Of a DNA stretch of 53,880 nt, positions 19,843 to 48,481 are shown piece by piece; positions within the stretch are counted from its first letter, which is position 1; each line of letters begins with the position of its first letter. Origin of the DNA: Promethearchaeota archaeon (GTDB taxonomy: Archaea > Asgardarchaeota > Lokiarchaeia > Sigyniarchaeales > SOKP01); the NCBI GenBank assembly GCA_004524535.1, contig SDNY01000006.1:1-53880 (forward strand). The letters are read 5' to 3'. Under the pieces are notes generated by a model. The model did not search any database, had not been told where the DNA came from, and was given only the letters and a program-made list of their open reading frames with translations. Both the position numbers and the translations under genes were made by a program.

Positions 19843-20262
19843 TTATCGTTGCTGAAAACCGCTTCTCTGAAAAGCCATTGACATATTTTGAAGGTTTAAA
19901 TCCAAATTTTGTATCTGGGTTCTTAAAAATTGCAATTGTTCATTGTGCTGTCCAATAATCTTATCAACAAATTCTATTGAATTATCTAAATCTTTTTCAA
20001 TCACAACGTCTTGTGAAATATAAAGTTGAATTTTTTTAGGATTCTTGATTGTAGCATAAATATTAATTAATCCGCCTATTGGGATTAAAATCTCTTCGCC
20101 TTCTTTAACAGTCTTTAAATTTTCTATGGTCTCTTTAGTATTCCGAAAATTATTAAGAGATACATTTACAAACTCTAGTTGATTAGCGAACATATCCCTT
20201 TGATCTTTTAAATACTTAAATTGATATAATAAAGCTTGTTTATTTTCTTGAGGATTTTCCAT
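19843..20262 (-). CDS. pfdA: Prefoldin alpha subunit
   Basis: A 139-residue chaperone subunit that captures nascent unfolded proteins and hands them to the thermosome. Predicted layout fits prefoldin alpha: an N-terminal coiled-coil helix (LLYQFKYLKDQRDMFANQLE), a beta-hairpin middle (EEILIPIGGLINIYATI) with the typical IPIGG, and a C-terminal coiled-coil helix. Two alpha and four beta subunits form the hexamer in known systems. The gene lies between the L20e/LX gene and ftsY, its usual place in archaea, with short gaps suggesting one operon. Confidence 0.93.
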   Translation of the reverse strand: MENPQENKQALLYQFKYLKDQRDMFANQLEFVNVSLNNFRNTKETIENLKTVKEGEEILIPIGGLINIYATIKNPKKIQLYISQDVVIEKDLDNSIEFVDKIIGQHNEQLQFLRTQIQNLDLNLQNMSMAFQRSGFQQR

Positions 20263-20293
20263 ATTTTTTCACTCAGATTGAGTTAATTATAAT

Positions 20294-20524
20294 CTATTGA
20301 GATAATTCACGTATAAGATGATCTTGACTTTCTTCTGCTGTAATTTCCTTTATTTCTTCAATTTTAATTTGTCGCCTATAAATACCTATAGATGTTATTT
20401 GTGATAATGCTTTTTCGAGAGCATCTTTTTCTTTAAGCGCACGGATTTCCTTTCTAAAAAGGTATTTTTTTTGTTTTCTAGTGTAAGTACCGATTATTTG
20501 ATATATTTTTATCTCAGATGACAT
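20294..20524 (-). CDS. rpl18a: Ribosomal protein L20e (L18a/LX)
   Basis: A 76-residue large-subunit ribosomal protein of the archaeal LX type. The start IKIYQIIGTYTRKQKKYLFRKE (split here as IKIYQIIGTY and RKQKKYLFRKE) and the later IGIYRRQIKIEEIKEI strand match LX. Length is normal for archaea. It is placed between eif6 and pfdA in the conserved cluster, in the same orientation and with a gap of about 70 bases to eif6. Confidence 0.93.
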   Translation of the reverse strand: MSSEIKIYQIIGTYTRKQKKYLFRKEIRALKEKDALEKALSQITSIGIYRRQIKIEEIKEITAEESQDHLIRELSQ

Positions 20525-20596
20525 AATTATTTGGTAAAATCATTTAAAAATTATTAAATTTTGCTTTTTTTTAGATTTAAGAGAAAATTACGTCTT

Positions 20597-21280
20597 TTAG
20601 AGCTTTAGAACGGATGTAAGCCTCATTAATTCTGGTCCAGTTGAATCCATGCCAAAAATCCCACTTTTATCATTAACTATCGCACCCGCACTAAGATATG
20701 GAATACCTCGATTGATGGTGCTTACATCAGTTTCCACTTTTAAGATTGATGAGATCTTCTCAATTTCATCGTCATTAGCAAGAGGATGGACTAAACAGCC
20801 GTTATTATTTGCTATGGATATTGAACCTGGAAGAGAAGAGCCTGCAAATTCAAATACTTCAGTTTCAATATTTAAAATATCTTCTATTTGTTTTCTATAA
20901 TCTTTTAAAAATGAGCTAATAATTGCACCCTTATCGTTGCAAAGTATTAGGTTTCCAAATGCATTATCTAAGGAATTGAGAATTCCGATTTGAGTTAACT
21001 CTCCAATATTTGATTTCAGCACGTTAAATTCATCTTCCTTTATGATATTTGGTACTATAATTCCGTATTTGTTTGATGCAGTGTATATTCCTAATAGATT
21101 AGAATTGTTTATAGTTAAAGGAAATAACGGTTCGTTAAAAACTGATTTGAACTTTTTAAGTATTGGTTTTAATAGAAGATGAGGATATAAAACATATGAA
21201 TTATTTGCTGCTAAATAAACGCCTATTAAATTATTTCCAAAAACTTGAGCTTTAAGAATAGACAACGATTTAATTTCCAC
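20597..21280 (-). CDS. eif6: Translation initiation factor 6 (aIF6)
   Basis: A 227-residue ribosome anti-association factor that binds the large subunit. The protein is built of five pseudo-symmetric repeats seen as recurring blocks such as NNSNLLGIYTASNKYGIIVP, LCNDKGAIIS, SIANNNGCLVHPLAND and YLSAGAIVNDKSGIFG, the diagnostic pentein pattern. Length matches archaeal IF6. It follows L31e by about 35 bases on the same strand, the standard order in archaeal genomes, so it is almost certainly co-expressed with the ribosomal proteins. Confidence 0.96.
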   Translation of the reverse strand: MEIKSLSILKAQVFGNNLIGVYLAANNSYVLYPHLLLKPILKKFKSVFNEPLFPLTINNSNLLGIYTASNKYGIIVPNIIKEDEFNVLKSNIGELTQIGILNSLDNAFGNLILCNDKGAIISSFLKDYRKQIEDILNIETEVFEFAGSSLPGSISIANNNGCLVHPLANDDEIEKISSILKVETDVSTINRGIPYLSAGAIVNDKSGIFGMDSTGPELMRLTSVLKL

Positions 21281-21315
21281 CGAAACTATATTTTAAAAGT
21301 AGTAAAGTTATAATC

Positions 21316-21774
21316 TCAGGCGAGATATACAACAACTAATCCATCAATATTCTTTGTTGCTCTTACTTTCAATTTTCGAGGGGGTTTTTGAGCTCCCCGT
21401 TCCCAAATCTTCTCGTTTACTTCTTGTGAAATTATTAAAGATTCCGGTTTAAAATGGCGATCTAAATATTCCCGTAAGTATCTGATCGATTTCTTTGCCC
21501 ATTTCTTTCTAGGACCTCTTCGAGCTTTCACGATTGGTATATTATATAGTCGTTCGTCAATAATCTCTTCTTTGGGGGCTTCAACTTCTTCTAACTCTTC
21601 TTCAATTTCTTCCTCAAATATTTCATCAATTTCTTGCTCTTCAGAAATCTCTTCTATTTCAAATTCTTCAATTTCTTCAATTTCTTCTTCAACTATTTCT
21701 TCTTGAATCTCTTCGGTATCTAACTCTTGTTCTAAATCATCTAAACTAATTTCTTTACTTTTTTTTTTCGCCAT
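21316..21774 (-). CDS. rpl31e: Ribosomal protein L31e with long acidic N-terminal extension
   Basis: The C-terminal half (residues about 74-152) is a complete L31e: RLYNIPIVKARRGPRKKWAK, then IRYLREYLDRHFKP, ending in IDGLVVVYLA. The family is usually 80-100 residues. Here about 70 extra residues precede it, made almost wholly of Glu, Ile, Asp and Leu after a basic start (MAKKKSKE). The extension is in frame with no later good start, and the ATG is close behind the L39e gene. Such a charged tail on a ribosomal protein near the exit tunnel is unusual and could bind a partner or act as a basic-protein mimic. Confidence 0.93.
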   Translation of the reverse strand: MAKKKSKEISLDDLEQELDTEEIQEEIVEEEIEEIEEFEIEEISEEQEIDEIFEEEIEEELEEVEAPKEEIIDERLYNIPIVKARRGPRKKWAKKSIRYLREYLDRHFKPESLIISQEVNEKIWERGAQKPPRKLKVRATKNIDGLVVVYLA

Positions 21775-21818
21775 TTTTTTTCAATTTTTTCTGTTTATTA
21801 ATGAAATTAATTGTTTTT

Positions 21819-21980
21819 CTAATCCTTTTTGAGCTTTTGGTTTCTCCATTCCCGCCTGGTGTAGGGGCTTGTTCTTGTTTTTCCCCCTGTCTTCATTGTA
21901 ACCCAACTTGGAATGGATTTACTCTGATTCAGCTTTTTAGCTCTTCTTAATTTAGAGGGTAAATCTTTATTTCTTGCCAT
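21819..21980 (-). CDS. rpl39e: Ribosomal protein L39e
   Basis: A 53-residue basic protein lining the ribosomal exit tunnel. Translation from ATG 21980 gives MARNKDLPSKLRRAKKLNQS, later IPSWVTMKTGG and the closing RREWRNQKLKKD, matching the L39e pattern (Lys-rich start, PxWV, then R-R-x-W-R). It lies between the PDCD5 and L31e genes, as in other archaea. Confidence 0.96.
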   Translation of the reverse strand: MARNKDLPSKLRRAKKLNQSKSIPSWVTMKTGGKTRTSPYTRREWRNQKLKKD

Positions 21981-22000
21981 AATATAATTTTCATCTCTCT

Positions 22001-22345
22001 TTAGATAGTTTGATCAAATTTCTTAATTTTAAAATCTTTTTTCTTACCGGAAAGTTGTTCTAACAACTTTTTAAAAGCTGCATCCGATAATGGACCTCTT
22101 AATCTTCCTGCTTGAGCTAATTGTATTAATTGAAATTCAATTTCCTGGGCAAATTCAGGCTTAACAATTCGAATGTTTTCTAATCGTTGTCTTCCTTCTT
22201 GTGAAAGTATCTTTCTCATAATCTGATATTTACGAGCTTCAAAATCTTGCTTTTGAGCCTCAGCTATTTGTTGCTGAGCGACTTGTTGTTGTATCTCTTG
22301 TAATTTCTTCCTTCTTAATTCTTCTAATTTTTCTTCGTCACTCAA
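22001..22345 (-). CDS. PDCD5-family DNA-binding protein
   Basis: A 114-residue protein of the PDCD5/TFAR19 family, conserved in archaea and eukaryotes. It has the typical charged, Gln-rich N-terminal helix (LEELRRKKLQEIQQQ), the triple-helix core with SQEGRQRLENIRIVKPE, and the C-terminal GRLRGPLSDAAFKKLLEQL. Archaeal members are small and bind nucleic acid; the cellular role is unsettled. It lies 15 bases after rpS19e and about 20 bases before L39e, the common archaeal arrangement. Confidence 0.95.
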   Translation of the reverse strand: MSDEEKLEELRRKKLQEIQQQVAQQQIAEAQKQDFEARKYQIMRKILSQEGRQRLENIRIVKPEFAQEIEFQLIQLAQAGRLRGPLSDAAFKKLLEQLSGKKKDFKIKKFDQTI

Positions 22346-22360
22346 AATAAAACACGCAAA

Positions 22361-22786
22361 TTAGCTTTTTTTTCTTGAAATAGAATATCCTGTTCTTTCT
22401 AATAAGCTTCTTCCTTCGTTAGAAAGAATTCTGCCATTTTTTTCTGTTTTCACAATTAAATTAGCATTTTCTAATTGTTGTAATGCCACTCTTATGATTT
22501 TTCCACTTCCTTTAGCACTATGTTTTAAACCAGAACCCTTTTTATTCCTGCCTCCGTATTTCTTTCTTAATCGATTTACTCCGATTGGTCCAAATTTATT
22601 AATTTTTCTTAATAATGATGCACATCGGACATACCAAAATGTATGATGATTGACTGGTGCTAATTCCTTAAAAAATGCGGTCTTCCAAAATTCCGAACCA
22701 TTTGGAGCATTGATTTCAGGGTATTCTTTTAATTTTTCAGCAACTGCTTGAATAAACGTGGATGGTTCAATGATGTATATCGACAT
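22361..22786 (-). CDS. rps19e: Ribosomal protein S19e
   Basis: A 141-residue small-subunit protein. Diagnostic parts: PEINAPNGSEFWKTAFFKEL, the WYVRCASLLRKI segment, GPIGVNRLRKKYGGRNKKG, and the winged-helix end GRILSNEGRSLLERTGY. Length is normal. It is the first gene of the minus-strand translation cluster and is divergent from the YhbY gene, with about 95 bases of shared promoter region between them. Confidence 0.97.
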   Translation of the reverse strand: MSIYIIEPSTFIQAVAEKLKEYPEINAPNGSEFWKTAFFKELAPVNHHTFWYVRCASLLRKINKFGPIGVNRLRKKYGGRNKKGSGLKHSAKGSGKIIRVALQQLENANLIVKTEKNGRILSNEGRSLLERTGYSISRKKS

Positions 22787-22881
22787 ATGCTAATATCTTT
22801 AATTCATATTTCTTATTTATTATTATAATATTTTGTAAAATCAATAGAAAATTAAAAATTTTATTATTTTAAGAACAAGAA

Positions 22882-23154
22882 ATGGGATATACTAGGGAAT
22901 TTAAAAAAGTACTTTTATCAGAACCGCACGCAACTCTAGGAAAGAATGGTATTACTGATGAATTCATAAGTCATATCTCTAAATTGCTGAAGAGATATAA
23001 AATAATTAAAATTAAAGCACTAAAATCTATTGCTATAAAATCAAATATAAAAGAAATTGCTCATAACATTTCTAAAAACACAGAATCCTATTTATTAGAT
23101 GTGCGTGGATTCACATTTATCATTTCTAAAAATCCAATTGAAAAAAACCAATAG
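22882..23154 (+). CDS. YhbY / CRS1-CRM domain RNA-binding protein
   Basis: A 90-residue protein made of a single CRM domain, an RNA-binding fold linked to large-subunit assembly. Seen: EPHATLGKNGITDEFISHI, the family's GKxGI element, then a strand VRGFTFIISKN near the end. Archaeal copies are often found beside rps19e and the RNase P Rpp21 gene, as here, which supports a ribosome-biogenesis role. It starts the plus-strand group yhbY-rnp4-nep1 with a 24-base gap to the next gene. Confidence 0.9.
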   Translation: MGYTREFKKVLLSEPHATLGKNGITDEFISHISKLLKRYKIIKIKALKSIAIKSNIKEIAHNISKNTESYLLDVRGFTFIISKNPIEKNQ

Positions 23155-23178
23155 AATTTAATTTTAACTACATATCAA

Positions 23179-23502
23179 ATGTCCAATTCTAAATATTTAA
23201 TTAAACAGATCGCAAGAAATAGAATAAATTTCTTATTTCAAAGAGCTCACGAAATATTTCATGAAAATAAGAGTTTAAGTAATAGATATGTATATTTAGC
23301 TCGCCGTTACGCTCAGCGAGCCAGAATTAAAATTCCATTTGAATGGAAAAAACGCATATGTAATGAATGTAAATCATTTTTATATCCAGGGTTAAATTGC
23401 AGGATAAGAATGCAATCTCGAAAAGGAAAGGGCTCACATGTTTCTTTAACCTGTTTTGAGTGTAATAAGACAACGCGATATTTTATTAAAACCAAGAATT
23501 AA
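23179..23502 (+). CDS. rnp4: RNase P protein component 4 (Rpp21/Rpr2)
   Basis: A 107-residue protein subunit of RNase P, which trims tRNA 5' leaders. The helical N-terminus (ARNRINFLFQRAHEIF, YVYLARRYAQRARIKIP) and the zinc ribbon with CNEC and CFEC pairs about 40 residues apart, plus LNCRIRMQSRKGKGSHV between them, match archaeal Rpp21. It is in line with yhbY and nep1. Confidence 0.94.
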   Translation: MSNSKYLIKQIARNRINFLFQRAHEIFHENKSLSNRYVYLARRYAQRARIKIPFEWKKRICNECKSFLYPGLNCRIRMQSRKGKGSHVSLTCFECNKTTRYFIKTKN

Positions 23503-23545
23503 TTGAATCATATATCTTTTTAATAAGAAAAATCATAACTTAATC

Positions 23546-24220
23546 ATGCCATTGATCATTGTTTTAGTAGAATGTGGACTCGAATTAATTCCTAAGCAAA
23601 TTCGCAATCAACCTTCTGTAAAAAGAAATTTAAAAGTTAAAAAATATTATTCACTGCTTTTAGATAACGCCTTACATCATTCCGCTATGAAAAACCTTAA
23701 AAATCACGATAAAAGAGGGCGTCCTGATATTACCCATATTTGTTTGCTTAATGCACTGGGGTCTCCTTTAAATAAGAGTGGAAATTTAAAGATATACGTT
23801 CATACAATTCATAATAGAATCTTTGATATAAATCCAGAGATTAGAATAGCAAGAAATTATAATCGGTTTAAAGGATTAATTGGAAAAACATTATTAGAGG
23901 GAGATATAATTATTAAAGATAAAAAATTAATCTCTCAAGTAGATGGAAATTTAAATGACCTAATAAAATCCATTGAAAATTCAGAAATACTATTATTTTC
24001 AAGTAGGGGATCATTAATTAAAAGCCATCAAAACTTATTTCTAAAAAACTCGTCTAAAAACTATATTGCAATTATTGGAGGCTTTCAAAAAGGTAGTTTT
24101 TCAAAAGAGATCTTATCATTATCAGATAATTTAATATCTATTTCAAAGCATCAATTAGATGCATGGGTGGTTATAAATAGAATAATTACTTACTATGAAA
24201 TTTCGCATAGTTTAATTTAA
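23546..24220 (+). CDS. nep1: Nep1/Emg1 rRNA pseudouridine N1-methyltransferase
   Basis: A 224-residue SPOUT-class methyltransferase that modifies a pseudouridine in helix 35 of 16S rRNA and aids small-subunit assembly. Seen: VLVECGLELIP at the start, LLDNALHHSAMKNL, the substrate motif KRGRPDITHICLLNALGSPL, and the SAM-binding knot around IAIIGGFQKGSFSKEI. Length is typical. It follows rnp4 by 43 bases and is followed by a tRNA-Gly gene 35 bases on. Confidence 0.95.
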   Translation: MPLIIVLVECGLELIPKQIRNQPSVKRNLKVKKYYSLLLDNALHHSAMKNLKNHDKRGRPDITHICLLNALGSPLNKSGNLKIYVHTIHNRIFDINPEIRIARNYNRFKGLIGKTLLEGDIIIKDKKLISQVDGNLNDLIKSIENSEILLFSSRGSLIKSHQNLFLKNSSKNYIAIIGGFQKGSFSKEILSLSDNLISISKHQLDAWVVINRIITYYEISHSLI

Positions 24221-24255
24221 ATAAAAAATTATACGTTATTAATATAAATAATTCT

Positions 24256-24327
24256 GCGCTCTTAGTATAGTGGTAAGAATCTCGGGTTTCCAACCCGAGG
24301 ACCCGGGTTCAATTCCCGGAGGGCGCA
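24256..24327 (+). tRNA. tRNA-Gly (UCC)
   Basis: A 72-nt intronless tRNA without encoded CCA. Acceptor GCGCTCT pairs with AGGGCGC (one G-U). The D-arm has the TAGTATAGTGGTA pattern typical of Gly. The anticodon stem TCGGG/CCCGA carries loop TTTCCAA, giving UCC. The T-arm is CCGGG/CCCGG with loop TTCAATT. Discriminator A73. A T7 run follows directly. Confidence 0.97.
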
Positions 24328-24334
24328 TTTTTTT
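24328..24334 (+). terminator. Oligo-T terminator after tRNA-Gly
   Basis: Seven T residues begin right after the discriminator base of tRNA-Gly, the usual archaeal transcription stop signal. Confidence 0.6.
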
Positions 24335-24496: not shown

Positions 24497-25603
24497 TTAC
24501 TTGCAAAACAGATCATTTGCCATAATTTCAGCTGGTTTAAATATATCTGTGGCTCCATCCCATACTAATAAGATATTATGATAAAGGGTTTCAAATTTAT
24601 CAACAAAATATTTTAATACAACCTTAGGAAAATTTAGTTCTTCTGAAGTATACAATATACCAGATACATTTTTTGCTTGATAGATAATCACATTCTCTCC
24701 TTTCTTTTGTAAGACCGAAATAGCATTTCGTTCCTCACCAGTTTCACTTAGTTCGCGAAGCATTATATTTATGCTGGTAATTGCAGCAGAAATTAAATTT
24801 TCATCCATTAAATCTTTTCTTTCACTGAAAACTTTATAATAAATGCAAATACCCGCACTATTCACTAGAAAAAGAGCCTCTATTTTGTCTTGCCAATCAA
24901 ATTCAGAAAACGGAGGTAAGGTCAAGAAAAAATAAGATAATATTACGACAGAAAATAACTGAAGAATAGAACCAATCATTCGACCTTCAAGACCAAAAAT
25001 CGTTATTGCGACATCTGTAGTAAGCGCAAATCCAAAAACCATTAATAAAAGACCGCTAAAAAAGAAAATTCTATTTTTCTCTAACTTTTTCATAAATTTT
25101 ATCAAATATATAACAAAAAAAGATGAAAAACTTAACCAATATATATACGTTACCGCTTGAGTTATCCTAATATCTATGAAAAACAAGATCAAAAAAATTA
25201 TAGCACATATTGAAAAGATCGTTGTAAATACATATCTTTTAAATATAAACACAATATATTTTTCAACGCAGAAAAGAAAAATCGTCGTAAAAAAAATCAT
25301 TGTAAAATACCCTAAATTTAAGAAAAACGCTCTTGCACTTCCACTTCTCCAAATAAGAAAAGGAGATATAATATCATCTTCAACAAAGTAATTCCCTATA
25401 ATATAAAAACACCACATTAGTGAAAAGCCGAAAAATAACGAAAAATATCCGACATCTTGTAAATTTCTCAATGTTTTTTCTTGTTTGAAATATCGCACTA
25501 AAAAAATAAGACTAATTTCAAAACCCGTAATTATGAAAATCCATTCCATTATCAATAATGGTAATCTTATATCTCCACTTATTGGGAATTCTAAAAACAG
25601 CAT
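24497..25603 (-). CDS. Seven-helix membrane protein with cytoplasmic longin/roadblock-like domain (copy 3)
   Basis: A 368-residue protein from ATG 25603, chosen because AAGGTGA lies 8 bases upstream. Seven hydrophobic helices span residues about 10-230; with the N-terminus outside, the C-terminal 130 residues are cytoplasmic. That tail opens with EALFLVNSAGICIYYKVF, then a helix LISAAITSINIMLRELSE, strands VIIYQ and SGILYTSEELNF, and a closing helix FVDKFETLYHN. This is the strand-helix-strand order of longin/roadblock-type domains, which regulate small GTPases. It is nearly identical to its upstream neighbour (tandem duplication). The helical part may resemble the 7TM input module of some histidine kinases. 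A sensor role is inferred. Confidence 0.75.
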   Translation of the reverse strand: MLFLEFPISGDIRLPLLIMEWIFIITGFEISLIFLVRYFKQEKTLRNLQDVGYFSLFFGFSLMWCFYIIGNYFVEDDIISPFLIWRSGSARAFFLNLGYFTMIFFTTIFLFCVEKYIVFIFKRYVFTTIFSICAIIFLILFFIDIRITQAVTYIYWLSFSSFFVIYLIKFMKKLEKNRIFFFSGLLLMVFGFALTTDVAITIFGLEGRMIGSILQLFSVVILSYFFLTLPPFSEFDWQDKIEALFLVNSAGICIYYKVFSERKDLMDENLISAAITSINIMLRELSETGEERNAISVLQKKGENVIIYQAKNVSGILYTSEELNFPKVVLKYFVDKFETLYHNILLVWDGATDIFKPAEIMANDLFCK

Positions 25604-25655
25604 GTTAATATTCACCTTTTAGTATTATAGACTTTTTAACATAAAAATAAAAGAA

Positions 25656-26762
25656 TTACTTGCGAAATAGATCATCTGCCATAATTTCAGCTGGTTTAAA
25701 TATATCTGTGACTCCATCCCATTTTATTAAGATATTATGATAAAGAGTTTCAAATTTATCAACAAAATCTTTTAATACAACCTTAGGAAAATTTAGTTCT
25801 TCTGAAGTATACAATATACCAGATACAAGTTGTCCTTGATAGATAATCACATTTTCTCCTTTCTTTTGTAAGACCGAAATACCATGTTGATGCTGACCAG
25901 TTTCACTTAGTTCGTCAAGCATTATATTTATGCTGGTAATTGCGGCAGAAATTAAATTTTCATCCACTAAATCTTTTCTTTCACTGAAAACTTTATAATA
26001 AATGCAAATACCTGCATCATTTACTAGGAAAACAGCTTCTATTTTATCTTGCCAATCAAATTCAGAAAATGGTGGTAAGGTCAAAAAATAATAAGATAGT
26101 ACTACAACAGATAATAATTGAATAATAGCACCAATCATTCGACCCTCAAGACCGAAAACCGATATTAAGGCGTCTGTAGTAAGCCCAAATCCAAATATCA
26201 TTAAGAAAAATCCGCTAAAAAGCAATATCGTGGTTTTTCCTGACTTTTTTATAAATTTTATCAAATATATAGCAAAAAAAAATAAAAAACTACTCCAATA
26301 TATATATGTTACCGTTTGAGTTATCCTAATATCGATGAAAAACAAGATCGAAAACAATATGGCACATATTAAAAAGATCGTTGTAAATACATATTTTTTA
26401 AATAGAAATACAATATATTTTTCAACACATAAAAGATAAATCATCGTAAAAGAAATCATTGAAAAATACCCTAAATTTAAGAAAAATGCTCGTGCACTTC
26501 CACTTCTCCAAATAAGAAAGGGAGATACAATATTGTCTGGAACAAAGTAATCCCCTAAAATAAAAAAAAACCACATTAGTGAAAAGCCGAAAAATAACGA
26601 AAAATATCCGACATCTTGTAAATTTCTCAATGTTTTTTCTTGTTTGAAATATCGCACTAAAAAAATAAGACTAATTTCAAACCCCGTAGTTATGAAAATC
26701 CATTCCATTATCAATAATGGTAATCTTAAATCTCCACTTATTGGGAATTCTAAAAACAGCAT
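25656..26762 (-). CDS. Seven-helix membrane protein with cytoplasmic longin/roadblock-like domain (copy 2)
   Basis: Same length and layout as copy 3: seven helices then a 130-residue longin/roadblock-like tail (AVFLVNDAGICIYYKVF, YTSEELNFPKVVLKDFVDKF). The soluble tails and the first two helices of the two copies are almost the same, while helices 3 to 6 differ more, as if the membrane part were diversifying. The ATG at 26762 has only a weakened version of the upstream motif (AATGTGA instead of AGGTGA). It begins 14 bases after the stop of copy 1, so translation may be coupled. Confidence 0.75.
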   Translation of the reverse strand: MLFLEFPISGDLRLPLLIMEWIFITTGFEISLIFLVRYFKQEKTLRNLQDVGYFSLFFGFSLMWFFFILGDYFVPDNIVSPFLIWRSGSARAFFLNLGYFSMISFTMIYLLCVEKYIVFLFKKYVFTTIFLICAILFSILFFIDIRITQTVTYIYWSSFLFFFAIYLIKFIKKSGKTTILLFSGFFLMIFGFGLTTDALISVFGLEGRMIGAIIQLLSVVVLSYYFLTLPPFSEFDWQDKIEAVFLVNDAGICIYYKVFSERKDLVDENLISAAITSINIMLDELSETGQHQHGISVLQKKGENVIIYQGQLVSGILYTSEELNFPKVVLKDFVDKFETLYHNILIKWDGVTDIFKPAEIMADDLFRK

Positions 26763-26776
26763 GTTAATATTCACAT

Positions 26777-27892
26777 TTAGTATAATAGACCTTTTATTAT
26801 TAAATCAAAACTTCCAAAAAGTTGTTCTTCACTTCCTATAAAACTATCTACTTCACTTAATATTTCTTTATAAAAAGCTTCAAACTGATTTTTAATAGTT
26901 TTTAAAAAAAAACGATTGCTATCTAAATCTTCTTTAACGATTAAGGCGTAAGCTATTTGAAGGGGGGATCTAGTTCCATATTCTAATAAAATAAGTGAAT
27001 CAGCTTGTTTAATTTTATTCATTTTTTCACCTTCCGTTTTCGTTATAGCTGAAAGAATGCTGTCGATTCCAGTAATGCCACCTGAAAATAACCTCTTATA
27101 ATCTTTGTGTTTAGATTTAAGTTCAGAGAAATCATAACTATAAAGACTAGTATGATTTTTTTGGTCGATAATAAGTAGTCTTAATAAATTATCTTTCCAT
27201 TTTAGTTCATAAAAAGCAGGGAACGAATGAACACCTAATAATACAATAATAAGACCTGCCATCAATAAAGAAATCCCCATGAAAATAAGAATATTTAAGG
27301 GATAAAAACCTGCAATTATCTCCATTACAACAAATAAGGATATTATACTTAAATCAGTACCAATAAAAATTAATAATAATCTATTTTTAATAATTCCTTT
27401 AGAAGTGTTAATTAATCTGATTTGAAAAATTAGAAAGTATATTAAAATTGCTGATAGTATTATTGTAACTATTAAAAATGTGAAAAGCTCACTTGAAGGT
27501 AAAAGAATTACAACAATAATCGGAATTAGATTAATGATTATTAGAGATTTCGCGATTTTTGTATTAATTATTTTTGAAAATTCTTTAATACTAATAAAAA
27601 ATAAAAGTGCTATAGTAGAAAGAAACATTGAAACATATCCAAATTTGTAAATGATTTCTGTCCAGATAGGATCCAAAATAAAAAGTCTATTAATAGCTAA
27701 AATAAAATCACTAATAATAAAAAATATAAAAAACACTCCAAATGACAATAATATCATATTTAAAGGGAGTCGTTCGTCTCTGATTTTATAATATCGATAA
27801 AGAAAATATATTACTAATTGAATCCCTAATATTGTGGTAGTTAAATAAAATAAGAGTTCAATCTCTTGAATTTTATTCAATTGGAACAACAT
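26777..27892 (-). CDS. Seven-helix membrane protein with cytoplasmic longin/roadblock-like domain (copy 1, divergent)
   Basis: A 371-residue first gene of the three-gene tandem array. It keeps the architecture of its neighbours (seven helices, then a soluble tail with LRLLIIDQKNHTSLYSYDF, an Ile-Leu rich helix and DSLILLEYGT) but the sequence is far less similar, sharing mainly the LPLN/LLSFGVFF region, the PAFYELKWKDNL junction (PPFSEFDWQDKI in the others) and the tail pattern. It is therefore an older paralog. About 340 bases upstream are free of genes and hold the promoter for the array. Confidence 0.7.
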   Translation of the reverse strand: MLFQLNKIQEIELLFYLTTTILGIQLVIYFLYRYYKIRDERLPLNMILLSFGVFFIFFIISDFILAINRLFILDPIWTEIIYKFGYVSMFLSTIALLFFISIKEFSKIINTKIAKSLIIINLIPIIVVILLPSSELFTFLIVTIILSAILIYFLIFQIRLINTSKGIIKNRLLLIFIGTDLSIISLFVVMEIIAGFYPLNILIFMGISLLMAGLIIVLLGVHSFPAFYELKWKDNLLRLLIIDQKNHTSLYSYDFSELKSKHKDYKRLFSGGITGIDSILSAITKTEGEKMNKIKQADSLILLEYGTRSPLQIAYALIVKEDLDSNRFFLKTIKNQFEAFYKEILSEVDSFIGSEEQLFGSFDLIIKGLLY

Positions 27893-28235
27893 GGTTAGTT
27901 AAAGCATATTAATTATATCAAAAGTATAGTCAAATATATAAATAGTTTTAGGTTTTACCAATCAAGGTTCATTTTTAAAACAATAAAAGGCGGAAAATTT
28001 TAAATGATATCTTTGAAGAATCCCTTGCAGACACATCATTTAAAGTATTATCACAAATCGTTCAATATCTAGCTGAAAAACAGTTTAGTTTTTAATGAAA
28101 TTCTTTCCTTTCAAAATGTCTTAATAATTGATAATCCTTTATAAAAAAATTTTTATGAAAACATATATTTTGTTTTCTATCTAGTTTGTGATTAAAATTT
28201 AAATTAAATCGCAAATTAAGATTAACATCATCTAT
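27893..28235. other. Intergenic region with a short coding remnant
   Basis: About 340 bases, AT-rich. On the plus strand 27979-28095 stays open for 38 codons without a start and reads DIFEESLADTSFKVLSQIVQ, YLAEKQFSF and a stop. This is amphipathic and protein-like, so it may be the tail of a lost gene; I cannot name it. The last 40 bases hold a TTTAAATT box (about 28197-28206) positioned to serve the tRNA that follows. Confidence 0.35.
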
Positions 28236-28398
28236 GCCAACGTGGCGTAGCCCGGAAAAAACTAGACTCTCCTAGTATTGGGTAGGAACGCACCAGATTC
28301 CTCGGAATTACCGATAAAGGTGAAACTGAAGATCTGGGTATCGAGAAAATTCGAGAGATTCTCTCGATTTCGATAAGGTTCAAATCCCTCCGTTGGCA
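28236..28398 (+). tRNA. tRNA-Arg (probably CCU) with three introns
   Basis: Acceptor GCCAACG/CGTTGGC, discriminator A73. Intron 1 (28257-28284, D-loop) has a helix CCCG/TGGG between 3-nt bulges GAA and TAG, and splicing gives AGCCCGGAGGA with A20, an Arg identity base. The anticodon stem CCAGA/TCTGG is split by about 28 nt (near 28303-28330), leaving loop TTCCTGA with anticodon CCU; moving the splice point by one base would give CCA (Trp), so the identity is not certain. Intron 3 (28346-28376) splits the T-stem and has ATCG/CGAT between bulges AGA and AAG; splicing gives GAGGG-TTCAAAT-CCCTC. The mature length would be 76 nt. Confidence 0.85.
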
Positions 28399-28407
28399 TT
28401 GGTCATT

Positions 28408-34249: not shown

Positions 34250-37240
34250 ATGAAGAGGAATAATAGAAAATTAATAATTTTTTTAATAATATTCATCTTC
34301 GTAGTCTCTGCTTTCAATATTAATAGTTTTTATAAGAATAACTCATCATCGAATAAGATAAATATTGAAAAATCCCAAGAGATTGAAATAATAAATAAAA
34401 ATATAACTGATCTGGAACATTTAAAATCTGCTGGAGGTGGATCAGAGCAATTACACAATTTTTCCTTTACTGCACGGATACAAGAAACATGGCAAGAGGG
34501 TATTTGGTTCGTTAACAACACTTCCACTAAACCTAACGAAAATACTGATTGGATGATATTACCCAATACAAAAAATTCCACTATTTTGGCATTTGCATGT
34601 TATATTAGTCAACTTTTAAACTCATCTACATATGAAGATTTAGAACCAAGTGATCTTACAACGATGAAATTATCTTTCATGAATGAATCAATGGAAAGAG
34701 TTAACTTAAGTGAATTTGTAATTCATACACCTCCTGAGGACTGGAGGAAATTTAATAGTTCTGGAGGGTCAATTAAAATAAATGAGAGTAATGATGCTGA
34801 ATTTGTTATTTGGAATGATTGGGAAGAAAATACTAATATAAATTATACTGCTTATATGTCTATATATGCTAGCAGGATTCATTACGTTGAAACAAGATTT
34901 ATTCCCACTATTGAAAATACCCAATCAGATATAATAACTTGGGAATTATTATATGATGGTCATAGTCAAGGCTATTATGATGGCTCCATAAGAATAGAGG
35001 ATTTAGAAAAATTTACAATTGGAAAAGTTTTAGGATTTAATGGTTCATATTGGAAACCATTAGATTATACTAAAGATAATACTCATATTTTTTTAAGTGA
35101 GGGTTGTAGAAAGTATAAAATTGAGCTCCAAACTCCAAATTATCTTTCAATAGTTTATAATGATAATTTAACTTATGCGACAAACAGTAATAGACTTCAA
35201 TTATATGCTACAGCTAAGATGGATGGGAATATGACGATTCGATTTATTAATTCTAATGGTACCTTAGTTTACGAGAACACTACTGAAGTTATAAAGGACA
35301 AAACCCTATTTTATGATTACAAAATGAATTTAAATGAATCAGGGGGAATTGGGTACCTTAATATTACACTAATAAATGGATCAAAAATCGAGTTTGGTGT
35401 GAAGATCTGTGAAATCCTATTTCATAAACAATGTATCTTTGAAGGAATGACTTCAAACACAACCGCTTTCTCTCAATTTTTTGTAGCTATGTTATATATA
35501 GATTTTAATCTCTTAATTCACTATTTAATATTAAATTCTACTGGGGAAATGCCTCTCAATATGTGGGAAGCGTTCAGTTTATCAATTATTCCCAATGCTA
35601 CTATAACATATGAATTAGGTGATTTTCAAGGGGAGTTAACATACCAATATCTAGGGGGATTTTATGGTGCACCAAATATAACCCTTTATTGGGATAATTT
35701 AGATTTAAGTGAATATCAAATCGTTCCCGGTGAATATAACCTTACTTATAAAGCAAGCAAACCTGGATACCAACCTTTAGAGTATATAACCCCTTTTATA
35801 ATCGAACCAAAAGCAGTGAATATTACTGTTGTGACTATCGATGATACTGTCGCAATAGAAGAAGAATTTTTAATTGTTTTGGAATTTTCTGAGAATGATA
35901 CAAGGCAACCTTATTTGTGGACACCAGTTACTTTGAATCTTACTTTTACTTATATTAAAACTGGAGAAATTGATGTTCAAGTTCAATGGCCAGATGCTGC
36001 AATTCAAGCTATTACAATTCAAGATGTTATAGGAAATGATACTCTTCCTGGAGACTATAATTTAACTATCACTATTGATTCCGACTATTATTATGGTGAA
36101 ACCTCGTGGATAATGCATATTACTAAAAAAGTACTTGATCTATCAGTTGATTATGATGCAGATATTAGAGCAGGAGAAGATACAAATTTTTCTTGGTCGT
36201 TAGAAAATAATAATTTTCAGGGGAATCGAGTAAATATGTCTCTACAAATCATTTTAGACAATCAACTTTATAGGGAATATAACTTAACTTCAAATTCTAC
36301 AGGATGGAAAATAATGAATTTTGCTAGTGGGACTCACAATATAACTTATCGCATAGTAAGCCCCTTTTATGAAGCTGAAACAACTGTTATTATAAAAACC
36401 GTAAAATCCTCATTACCTATCGCCGATGATGATGATGATGACGATAAAGACAAGGAAGAAAATCTGCTATTGTGGCTCATCATTATAGGTATATTAATCG
36501 CTGTGAGCATTTTAGCAGTATTCCTCTTAATTTCAAGGCATAAGGTTAAGGCGCAAAGAGAATTAGATTCTGAATTAGTTGCCTTAAAAACGAAAACAAC
36601 GGCTTCAGAACAAAAAATTTCGCTTATTGAAGCTCAGATATCCCAAATCGCTTCGATCTACTGGATAATAATCGTCCACTCGGAACAAGGAACGACAATG
36701 GTTGAAATATCAGACTTCAGATTCGGAGAAGTTTTAGATGAAAAATATAAACATTTTATAGGCAAGGGTATGATGAGGGACTCTGCTCTAATTGGTGGAT
36801 TTCTAACAGCAATACGAAATTTTAGCAGAGAAACATCGGGTACATCTTTAGAATATCAACCTGTGTTTAACAGTCAAACAGATTACAGTACAGTTGTAGA
36901 TGATAACGAAATACATAGAAGAATTTTAGAAGGAACAGATTATTTTATGGCATTTGTTTCTTCAAGAGGAACGATTGAAATTTCAGACGTTTTATCCTCA
37001 GTAAACTCAATATTTCAAGAGGAATACGGTGAAATGGTTGAAAAGTTTGATGGAGCGATTAGCCCTTTCAGACCTTTTGAAGAAATGGTCGTAGATTTTT
37101 TACATAATGAGATAAGAGAACTGCAGAAAAAATTAAAAGAAGAAGAATTAATACTTGGACAATTTGAGGGACATCTAAAAGAAGTTCAAGAAAAAATTGG
37201 ATTTAAACCGAAAAAATCAGCTGACCTCGATTATAAATAG
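34250..37240 (+). CDS. Single-pass surface receptor-like protein with cytoplasmic longin-like domain
   Basis: A 996-residue protein. A signal peptide (KLIIFLIIFIFVVSAF) leads to about 690 extracellular residues rich in strands and NxS/T sites, with an Ig-like or PKD-like repeated feel (LPGDYNLTITIDSDY). An Asp run (about 727) precedes one membrane helix (LLLWLIIIGILIAVSILAVF) and a coiled segment. The cytoplasmic end (about 800-960) has IYWIIIVHSEQGTTMVEI, DSALIGGFLTAIRNFSRE and YFMAFVSSRGTIEISD, the longin-like pattern also seen in other proteins here, then a coiled coil. GGAG is 8 bases before the ATG and a TTTTATATA box 23 bases before. It looks like an external sensor coupled to a GTPase-regulating domain; this is inference. 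Confidence 0.8.
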   Translation: MKRNNRKLIIFLIIFIFVVSAFNINSFYKNNSSSNKINIEKSQEIEIINKNITDLEHLKSAGGGSEQLHNFSFTARIQETWQEGIWFVNNTSTKPNENTDWMILPNTKNSTILAFACYISQLLNSSTYEDLEPSDLTTMKLSFMNESMERVNLSEFVIHTPPEDWRKFNSSGGSIKINESNDAEFVIWNDWEENTNINYTAYMSIYASRIHYVETRFIPTIENTQSDIITWELLYDGHSQGYYDGSIRIEDLEKFTIGKVLGFNGSYWKPLDYTKDNTHIFLSEGCRKYKIELQTPNYLSIVYNDNLTYATNSNRLQLYATAKMDGNMTIRFINSNGTLVYENTTEVIKDKTLFYDYKMNLNESGGIGYLNITLINGSKIEFGVKICEILFHKQCIFEGMTSNTTAFSQFFVAMLYIDFNLLIHYLILNSTGEMPLNMWEAFSLSIIPNATITYELGDFQGELTYQYLGGFYGAPNITLYWDNLDLSEYQIVPGEYNLTYKASKPGYQPLEYITPFIIEPKAVNITVVTIDDTVAIEEEFLIVLEFSENDTRQPYLWTPVTLNLTFTYIKTGEIDVQVQWPDAAIQAITIQDVIGNDTLPGDYNLTITIDSDYYYGETSWIMHITKKVLDLSVDYDADIRAGEDTNFSWSLENNNFQGNRVNMSLQIILDNQLYREYNLTSNSTGWKIMNFASGTHNITYRIVSPFYEAETTVIIKTVKSSLPIADDDDDDDKDKEENLLLWLIIIGILIAVSILAVFLLISRHKVKAQRELDSELVALKTKTTASEQKISLIEAQISQIASIYWIIIVHSEQGTTMVEISDFRFGEVLDEKYKHFIGKGMMRDSALIGGFLTAIRNFSRETSGTSLEYQPVFNSQTDYSTVVDDNEIHRRILEGTDYFMAFVSSRGTIEISDVLSSVNSIFQEEYGEMVEKFDGAISPFRPFEEMVVDFLHNEIRELQKKLKEEELILGQFEGHLKEVQEKIGFKPKKSADLDYK

Positions 37241-47563: not shown

Positions 47564-48481
47564 TTAAATTAAATACTCGTCTATATTATCAGGCATGATT
47601 AATATTTCGGAAATCATTTTAGAAAACTCAACATGAGGAATGTTATCTTTATTCATTATATTATTTGCGAAGTCAGCATATTTTTTTTGAACGTGAGATT
47701 TTGCTAAATTTCTAAGTTTTGCACTAAAAGAGTAAAGATTTGAATAAGCTACCTTATAGTTCTTGTATTTCAAAGCTTCTTTCGTTTGTTTCAAATAATA
47801 TTGTAACCTTATCCGTCTATCTTTTATTTCATCCTTGACAGCTTTTGCATGTGGTTGAATTTTAATTAACTCTTCAGTAGCATCGAGTTTATTTAAAACC
47901 TCTATTATTTGCTCAAAGATTACTGTTTTTTCAATATAATTTTGAGTACTTGCTAGCTTATTATATAAATCTTCTTTTTTTATTAATAATTCTTCTCGTA
48001 AATTTGCAGAGATTTTACCTCTCTGAGCCCATATGGATTTAAAAACATCACTTTTTTGATCAAGTAGCGTTTCCTCAACTATATTTTTGCTAGTAATAAT
48101 TAAATTATTTACTTGTTCATCGAAAATTTTGAATTGTTCAGAGCTACCTTCCGCTTCACTAAATAACTCTGTATTATTTAAAATGATTTCTACTATTTTC
48201 GGAATTATTTTTGTCGCGGATTTATCCTCTTCCTTATCCACAACCATGACTAATTCTGAATTTATTTCAGCAATATGAGTAATTACAACGTGATAATCAC
48301 CCAGATTAATAGATTTTAAGACCTTTGAACCATCAAAAAACATTTTTGAAATGAATGTTTTTAAAGCGACTAAAAATCCACTAAACATATCTGACATATT
48401 TTCATCCATTTCATGGAAAAAAACTTTATCATATAGAAGAGTACCAGTTTCGCTCTGAAAAATAAAAAAGGCGTTTAACAT
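47564..48481 (-). CDS. Longin-like domain protein with C-terminal helical region
   Basis: A 305-residue soluble protein. Residues 1-110 follow the longin pattern seen elsewhere in the window: LNAFFIFQSETGTLLYDKVF, helix FSGFLVALKTFISKMFF, LGDYHVVITHIAEINSELVM and a helix ending IILNNTELF. Residues about 125-300 are helical and charged (IYNKLAS-type coiled segments, then FSAKLRNLAKSHVQKKY). Asgard longin proteins are candidates for small-GTPase or membrane-trafficking control. No partner GTPase gene is in the window. Confidence 0.72.
   Translation of the reverse strand: MLNAFFIFQSETGTLLYDKVFFHEMDENMSDMFSGFLVALKTFISKMFFDGSKVLKSINLGDYHVVITHIAEINSELVMVVDKEEDKSATKIIPKIVEIILNNTELFSEAEGSSEQFKIFDEQVNNLIITSKNIVEETLLDQKSDVFKSIWAQRGKISANLREELLIKKEDLYNKLASTQNYIEKTVIFEQIIEVLNKLDATEELIKIQPHAKAVKDEIKDRRIRLQYYLKQTKEALKYKNYKVAYSNLYSFSAKLRNLAKSHVQKKYADFANNIMNKDNIPHVEFSKMISEILIMPDNIDEYLI

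Follow-up and report, generated by a model that had tools for sequence, protein, structure and literature searches.

Paired seven-helix proteins with longin tails in Lokiarchaeia and their gene linkage to small GTPases

Lokiarchaea are the archaea closest to complex cells, and to our knowledge the inputs to the dozens of small GTPases in Asgard archaea are unknown. The window analysed here, a stretch of 53,880 nucleotides from a Lokiarchaeia genome (99% complete, 3.66 Mb), contains a trio of adjacent, intact open reading frames on the minus strand (24497-27892), each encoding seven helices followed by a predicted cytoplasmic tail of about 130 residues. The question raised by this locus is whether such proteins could connect a membrane sensor to a small GTPase. 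The first-pass annotation had described three adjacent genes of this architecture, a description borne out by the intact reading frames and two structure models; the trio is composed of a subunit A, a subunit B, and a duplicate B', rather than three equivalent copies. The features are as follows.

26777..27892, minus strand: gene for subunit A (P0003, 371 aa), seven transmembrane helices and longin tail (open reading frame, translation, family A2)
27230..27874, minus strand: seven-helix region of A, residues 7-221 (model, charge bias)
26780..27208, minus strand: longin tail of A, residues 229-371 (profile A4, fold search)
25656..26774, minus strand: gene for subunit B (P0002, 372 aa), seven transmembrane helices and longin tail (open reading frame, family A1)
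26079..26726, minus strand: seven-helix region of B, residues 13-228 counted from the ATG (model, charge bias)
25659..26063, minus strand: linker motif ExxW and longin tail of B (profile A3, fold search)
24497..25615, minus strand: gene for subunit B' (P0001), an intact recent duplicate of B (identity to B)
24920..25567, minus strand: seven-helix region of B' (gapless alignment to B)
24500..24904, minus strand: longin tail of B' (alignment A3)

Subunit A is the first gene of the cluster, with 371 codons in the frame 26777-27892. The frames 25656-26774 and 24497-25615 each have 372 codons from a GTG start and a conserved ATG 12 nt inside; the start of B is likely the ATG at 26762. The AlphaFold2 models of A (m87a0e691df46) and B (m532df7eaaca8) both have a pLDDT of 82. 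The trio is also present in a Lokiarchaeota MAG (TEKIR_6S), where the middle gene is 98% identical, and none of the three proteins has a significant match in Pfam or NCBIfam. Around the receptors, positions 19843-24220 hold information-processing genes (prefoldin, eIF6, and EMG1/Nep1, identified by Pfam) with small ribosomal-protein-like reading frames between them. A tRNA-like gene with a long intron is at 28235-28400 on the plus strand (acceptor arms TGCCAACG ... CGTTGGCA); it is not called by ARAGORN, whose sole tRNA call is a tRNA-Gly at 24255-24328.

The models of A and B each have seven transmembrane segments, two of which lie within one continuous helix in B (148-195). In both families the mean number of K+R is 3.2-4.9 in loops 1, 3, and 5, and 0.3-1.1 in loops 0, 2, 4, and 6; because K+R alternates between loops (positive-inside bias), the N-terminus is predicted to be outside and the longin tail in the cytoplasm. 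Both A and B have the predicted topology of a 7TM receptor (seven helices, N-terminus out, C-terminus in), and the charge counts agree with the cytoplasmic tail of the first-pass annotation and speak against its placement outside the cell. The helices of A are more variable than those of B, in which R13, E20, D71, R91, D197, and R208 (numbered from the ATG of B) are each present in ~78-88% of sequences. Read from their place in the helices, these charged residues are at the outward helix ends and fit one shared, putative binding site in B. The 7TM part has no match among PDB profiles and no significant match to known 7TM sensor families; the comparison with sensor families yielded only two weak matches, both to 7TMR-DISM_7TM (best E 0.0073). 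Homology to GPCRs or rhodopsins was rejected on the grounds that there is no PDB profile match and that Foldseek matches to GPCR bundles have E 0.05-0.4. The architecture had initially been proposed as an analogue, and not a homologue, of GPCR-G protein coupling; the comparisons show no sequence relation to GPCRs.

The order of the tail in both models is b1-b2-a1-b3-b4-b5-a2-a3 (E E H E E E H H by DSSP), with the extra C-terminal helix and without the N-terminal helix, as in longins, so structure prediction gives the longin order of strands and helices and not an unrelated fold. A pooled profile of 57 diverse tails, searched against 177,635 PDB sequences, had TRAPP longins as all of its top five matches (Bet5, TRAPPC1, and Trs23; E 4.8e-4 to 1.6e-2). 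The best match of the B tail profile (A3) is TRAPP Trs23 (3cue_A, E=3.8e-4), and that of the A tail profile (A4) is TRAPP Bet5 (3cue_C, E=1.5e-3); the E-values of the tails against TRAPP are all modest. Weak matches below the Pfam cut-offs were found to Sybindin in 15/57 tails (best 6.8e-4) and to Intu_longin_1 (CCZ1/INTU/HPS4) in three tails (best 2.9e-4), and Fuz_longin_1 was also matched weakly. With Foldseek, the B model matched TRAPP, COPI zeta, AP2 sigma, adaptin, Ragulator, and VAMP7, and the A model matched Bet5 in 2j3t at the top, followed by LokiRagO (an Asgard Rag-like GTPase) and Mon1-Ccz1; these tail matches have E 0.007-0.1, none reaching 0.001. Taken together, profiles and models support the predicted longin fold well and a particular relationship to TRAPP-type longins modestly. 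Of the initial label "longin/roadblock-like," the longin part stands, with TRAPP subunits nearest, and the roadblock part does not: one of 50 members matches Robl_LC7 (PF03259), with E 0.095, and the Robl_LC7 domains of the same genome, considered as relatives of the tail, were rejected at an hhalign probability of 4%.

The tail is also found in other contexts. In this genome it occurs on a 12-helix MFS-like protein (L012/L048; profile E 3e-29) and on a 2116-residue protein with a membrane helix. Tail-less seven-helix proteins of 216-246 aa are present at L167, L168, L170, L172, and L174, and the one at L172 is immediately followed by a longin-like protein of 203 aa encoded on its own, so that the fusion is split in two there; these other fusions, the tail-less proteins, and the split form support a modular reading of the 7TM-longin proteins. 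The MFS-like-longin fusion (L048:8271-9923, G000:C61), judged from its sequence a possible transceptor, has a standalone 129-aa longin/roadblock-like gene nearby. Elsewhere in the window, the plus-strand gene at 34250-37240 encodes a 996-aa protein with a large extracellular part, one transmembrane helix at about residue 770, and, on the cytoplasmic side, a longin-like domain, which makes it a receptor-like candidate for another protein with the same type of tail. On the minus strand, 47564-48481 encodes a soluble protein of 305 aa whose N-terminal domain is longin-like (E ~9e-4) and whose C-terminal part is helical and resembles repeats.

The arrangement of the genes is conserved. An A-type gene (~380 aa) followed by a B-type gene (~365 aa), adjacent and co-directional, was found in ~60 neighbourhoods, with 54 A-B pairs across Lokiarchaeia and gaps mostly from -32 to 49 bp. 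The homology of A and B extends over tail and 7TM part (hhalign E 1.6e-26 and 3.9e-21, respectively); they are only distantly similar and keep separate sequence signatures. Because A and B are conserved as a gene pair, the functional unit is probably A together with B, suggestive of a heterodimer. Of 97 relative genomes, 86 have relatives of the middle gene B, although many of the weaker matches in this count cover just the tail, in proteins of other architecture. The profile of the 7TM part matches 85 of the phylum's 228 genomes, from this class and a few others; judged by these sequence matches, the presence of the family exceeds chance. In other Asgard families, outside the class, the sampled loci have solo B-like genes, single or two in a row. 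The genome G078 (L058, L090), from another family, has 20 matches, among them tandem A-B blocks with several GTPases, all of one clade, on their flanks.

The duplication in the window's cluster is recent, as initially proposed: B and B' share 83% protein identity and 90% DNA identity (reading frame from its ATG), and B' also occurs in a sister genome (L050). B and B' differ chiefly in TM3-TM6 and loop 3, consistent with the earlier observation that the copies differ mostly in the middle helices. That pattern had been taken as expected of receptors diversifying their ligand side, a proposal which was rejected: synonymous divergence varies in parallel and peaks in the same region (dS 0.25 in the middle vs 0.02 at the 5' end), and dN/dS is ~0.5. 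Since the synonymous changes follow the same course, the pattern looks like a homogenised 5' end, with no sign of diversifying selection in this comparison.

Evidence on what the tails may do also comes from neighbouring genes. A reading frame for a Ras-like GTPase is found within 300 bp of 19/59 A-B clusters, compared to 12/204 controls (Fisher 6.2e-7), the controls being co-directional gene pairs from the same loci; the control rate is if anything too high, because it counts chance neighbours of pair-linked GTPases. The GTPase is directly upstream on the same strand in 10/59 clusters. When counted by genus to allow for shared descent, linkage is present in 8/13 genera vs 2.3 expected (P ~2e-4). 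In other genera the linked GTPase precedes the pair (GTPase-A-B), follows it, or is divergent from it; genus g8 has, just downstream of GTPase-A-B, a further longin-like gene of 150 aa that stands alone (L057:7089-7544, L061:6015-6470, L063:5553-6005, and L065). The linked GTPases belong to at least four unrelated lineages, namely a Lokiarchaeales group and one each in G078, G029, and G065. In the Lokiarchaeales linked group, WDxxGE replaces WDTAGQ and often GKxD replaces NKxD. A Ras-like family in Lokiarchaeales (L060:3750-4295, L047:2021-2587, and L113-L136) has WDxxGE for WDTAGQ and often GGKxDL for NKxD, in several copies per genome, with Glu in place of the catalytic Gln.

The window's genome has 60 Ras-family matches, and on one of its other contigs (C138) the gene after a sister cluster encodes a Ras-like GTPase whose P-loop is complete. 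The best matches of that GTPase in other genera adjoin pairs in G035:C14 and G015:C56 and are a few genes off in G052:C35. No GTPase is linked to the cluster in the window or to any of the eight members of its clade, and the GTPase of the GTPase-A-B type has no close orthologue in the window's genome (best ~47-53%, vs 69-70% between the linked ones). With no adjacent GTPase and no close orthologue, coupling of the window's cluster is inferred from its relatives only. The link to small GTPases in the first-pass annotation finds support in the gene neighbourhoods of relatives, in addition to the fold.

On balance, A and B are best read as the two subunits of a membrane sensor in which the longin tails pair and control or recruit a small GTPase, with nucleotide exchange as their probable role. 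Once A and B had assembled in the membrane, their longin tails would form a pair on the inner side. The helices would sense a signal from outside or from the membrane, perhaps at the outward charged residues of B, and this would alter the geometry of the longin pair and thereby the nucleotide loading or membrane recruitment of the GTPase. In the window's cluster, the partner GTPase would act in trans. The exchange step might resemble that of tri-longin (Mon1-Ccz1-type) factors, and this was rejected because the Y-K/R motif is not kept in the linked GTPases: across 20 of these, switch I has Tyr at -3 in 3/20 and K/R at -2 in 8/20, a frequency not clearly above that in other GTPases. The mechanism cannot then be identical to the Mon1-Ccz1 type, which leaves room for a TRAPP-like or a new one. 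A bolder version, which we consider rather doubtful, is that A-B receptor heterodimers are an independently evolved GPCR counterpart, in which ligand controls exchange by the TRAPP-like tails on a Ras-like GTPase of their own, frequently encoded beside the pair, and also that receptor-bound longins of this kind are the ancestors of the longin exchange factors in eukaryotic membrane traffic.

Other explanations account for part of the same evidence. The longin pair could be an effector or docking platform that binds GTP-loaded GTPase for membrane placement without exchange, and perhaps without a ligand. Longin and roadblock dimers are often scaffolds, as in Ragulator (PMC10933270), and many linked GTPases have Glu for the catalytic Gln (WDxxGE) and GKxD for NKxD, as slow or unusual switches would; the nearest longins by profile, however, are exchange-factor subunits, a weak discriminator. 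A platform of this kind is possible although less than likely, and exchange like that of a GEF is somewhat more likely than plain docking. The helices could instead move a solute, with the longin as a regulatory or assembly module and the GTPase link secondary (a transceptor, cf. SLC38A9-Ragulator). The MFS-like fusion in this genome and the conserved charges at the outward helix ends of B are compatible with a transporter or channel, but seven short-looped helices with the N-terminus outside are more like sensor modules and no transporter family was matched convincingly, making this reading decidedly unlikely.

Less probable still, GTPase genes could lie near the pairs simply because these genomes are rich in them, with the tail serving A-B assembly only or binding other partners. 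Such genomes have ~60 Ras-like genes each, and ~2/3 of the clusters have no linked GTPase; against this, GTPases occur near other genes at a background of ~2-6%, vs 32% at A-B clusters, and the linked GTPases come from independent lineages and lie in different orientations. The two-subunit sensor remains the preferred reading, and the GTPase genes beside the pair in many relatives suggest that a receptor-to-GTPase route evolved independently in Lokiarchaea.

No published description of 7TM-longin proteins was found in the literature searched, the scope of which left out bioRxiv and most subscription journals. Genome layout has been said not to help in matching Asgard GTPases to regulators (PMC10933270), and the GTPase linkage of A-B pairs is new evidence. 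In this family a longin domain like those of eukaryotic Rab exchange factors is fused to a putative membrane sensor, and the gene neighbourhood points to specific candidate GTPase partners. With a handful of genes, signal input to Asgard GTPases becomes directly testable.

Several known systems are similar in part. The TRAPP core contains the longin heterodimer Bet5/TRAPPC1-Trs23/TRAPPC4, an exchange factor for Rab1/Ypt1. The 7TM-longin proteins share with TRAPP the longin fold, the best profile and fold matches, the occurrence of two different longins together, and the association with a Rab-like GTPase; the correspondence of A to Bet5 and B to Trs23, partners of one heterodimer, is suggestive of a putative A-B dimer. 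TRAPP, in contrast, is soluble or peripheral without membrane helices, and relies on Bet3-type subunits to complete its exchange mechanism; Bet3/TRAPPC3-type homologues are reported in Thor and V4R-like ones in Loki (PMC10933270). Mon1-Ccz1, Fuzzy-Inturned, and BLOC-3 also have paired longins as a GTPase-binding site, which is putative here, and the weak Intu_longin_1 and Fuz_longin_1 matches are a further likeness. The tri-longin Rab exchange factors have three longins per subunit, whereas here there is one and the protein is membrane-integral; they require Y-K/R in switch I of the substrate (PMC12383261), which is absent from the GTPases linked here.

Among Asgard archaea, roadblock, longin, and longin-GTPase fusion proteins have been described, with no mention of transmembrane longins, and in MK-D1 GTPases and longins are reported as a rule not to share an operon (Tran et al. 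2024, PMC10933270). The longin domains of that study are likewise tied to small GTPases, but those reported here form a conserved longin family that is transmembrane and often GTPase-linked. In SLC38A9-Ragulator-Rag, too, a membrane protein works with small GTPases and a roadblock/longin platform, but that platform is a complex of its own, whereas the one here is fused to the helices. GPCRs are alike in having seven helices, the N-terminus outside, and, by analogy, a GTPase output, yet there is no sequence relation, and the output here would run from a longin tail to a Ras-like GTPase rather than to a heterotrimeric G protein. The 7TM-longin family is, as far as these comparisons go, a member of the longin superfamily, with neither TRAPP nor GPCR identity established; if the inference holds, it would work like a receptor-coupled exchange factor.
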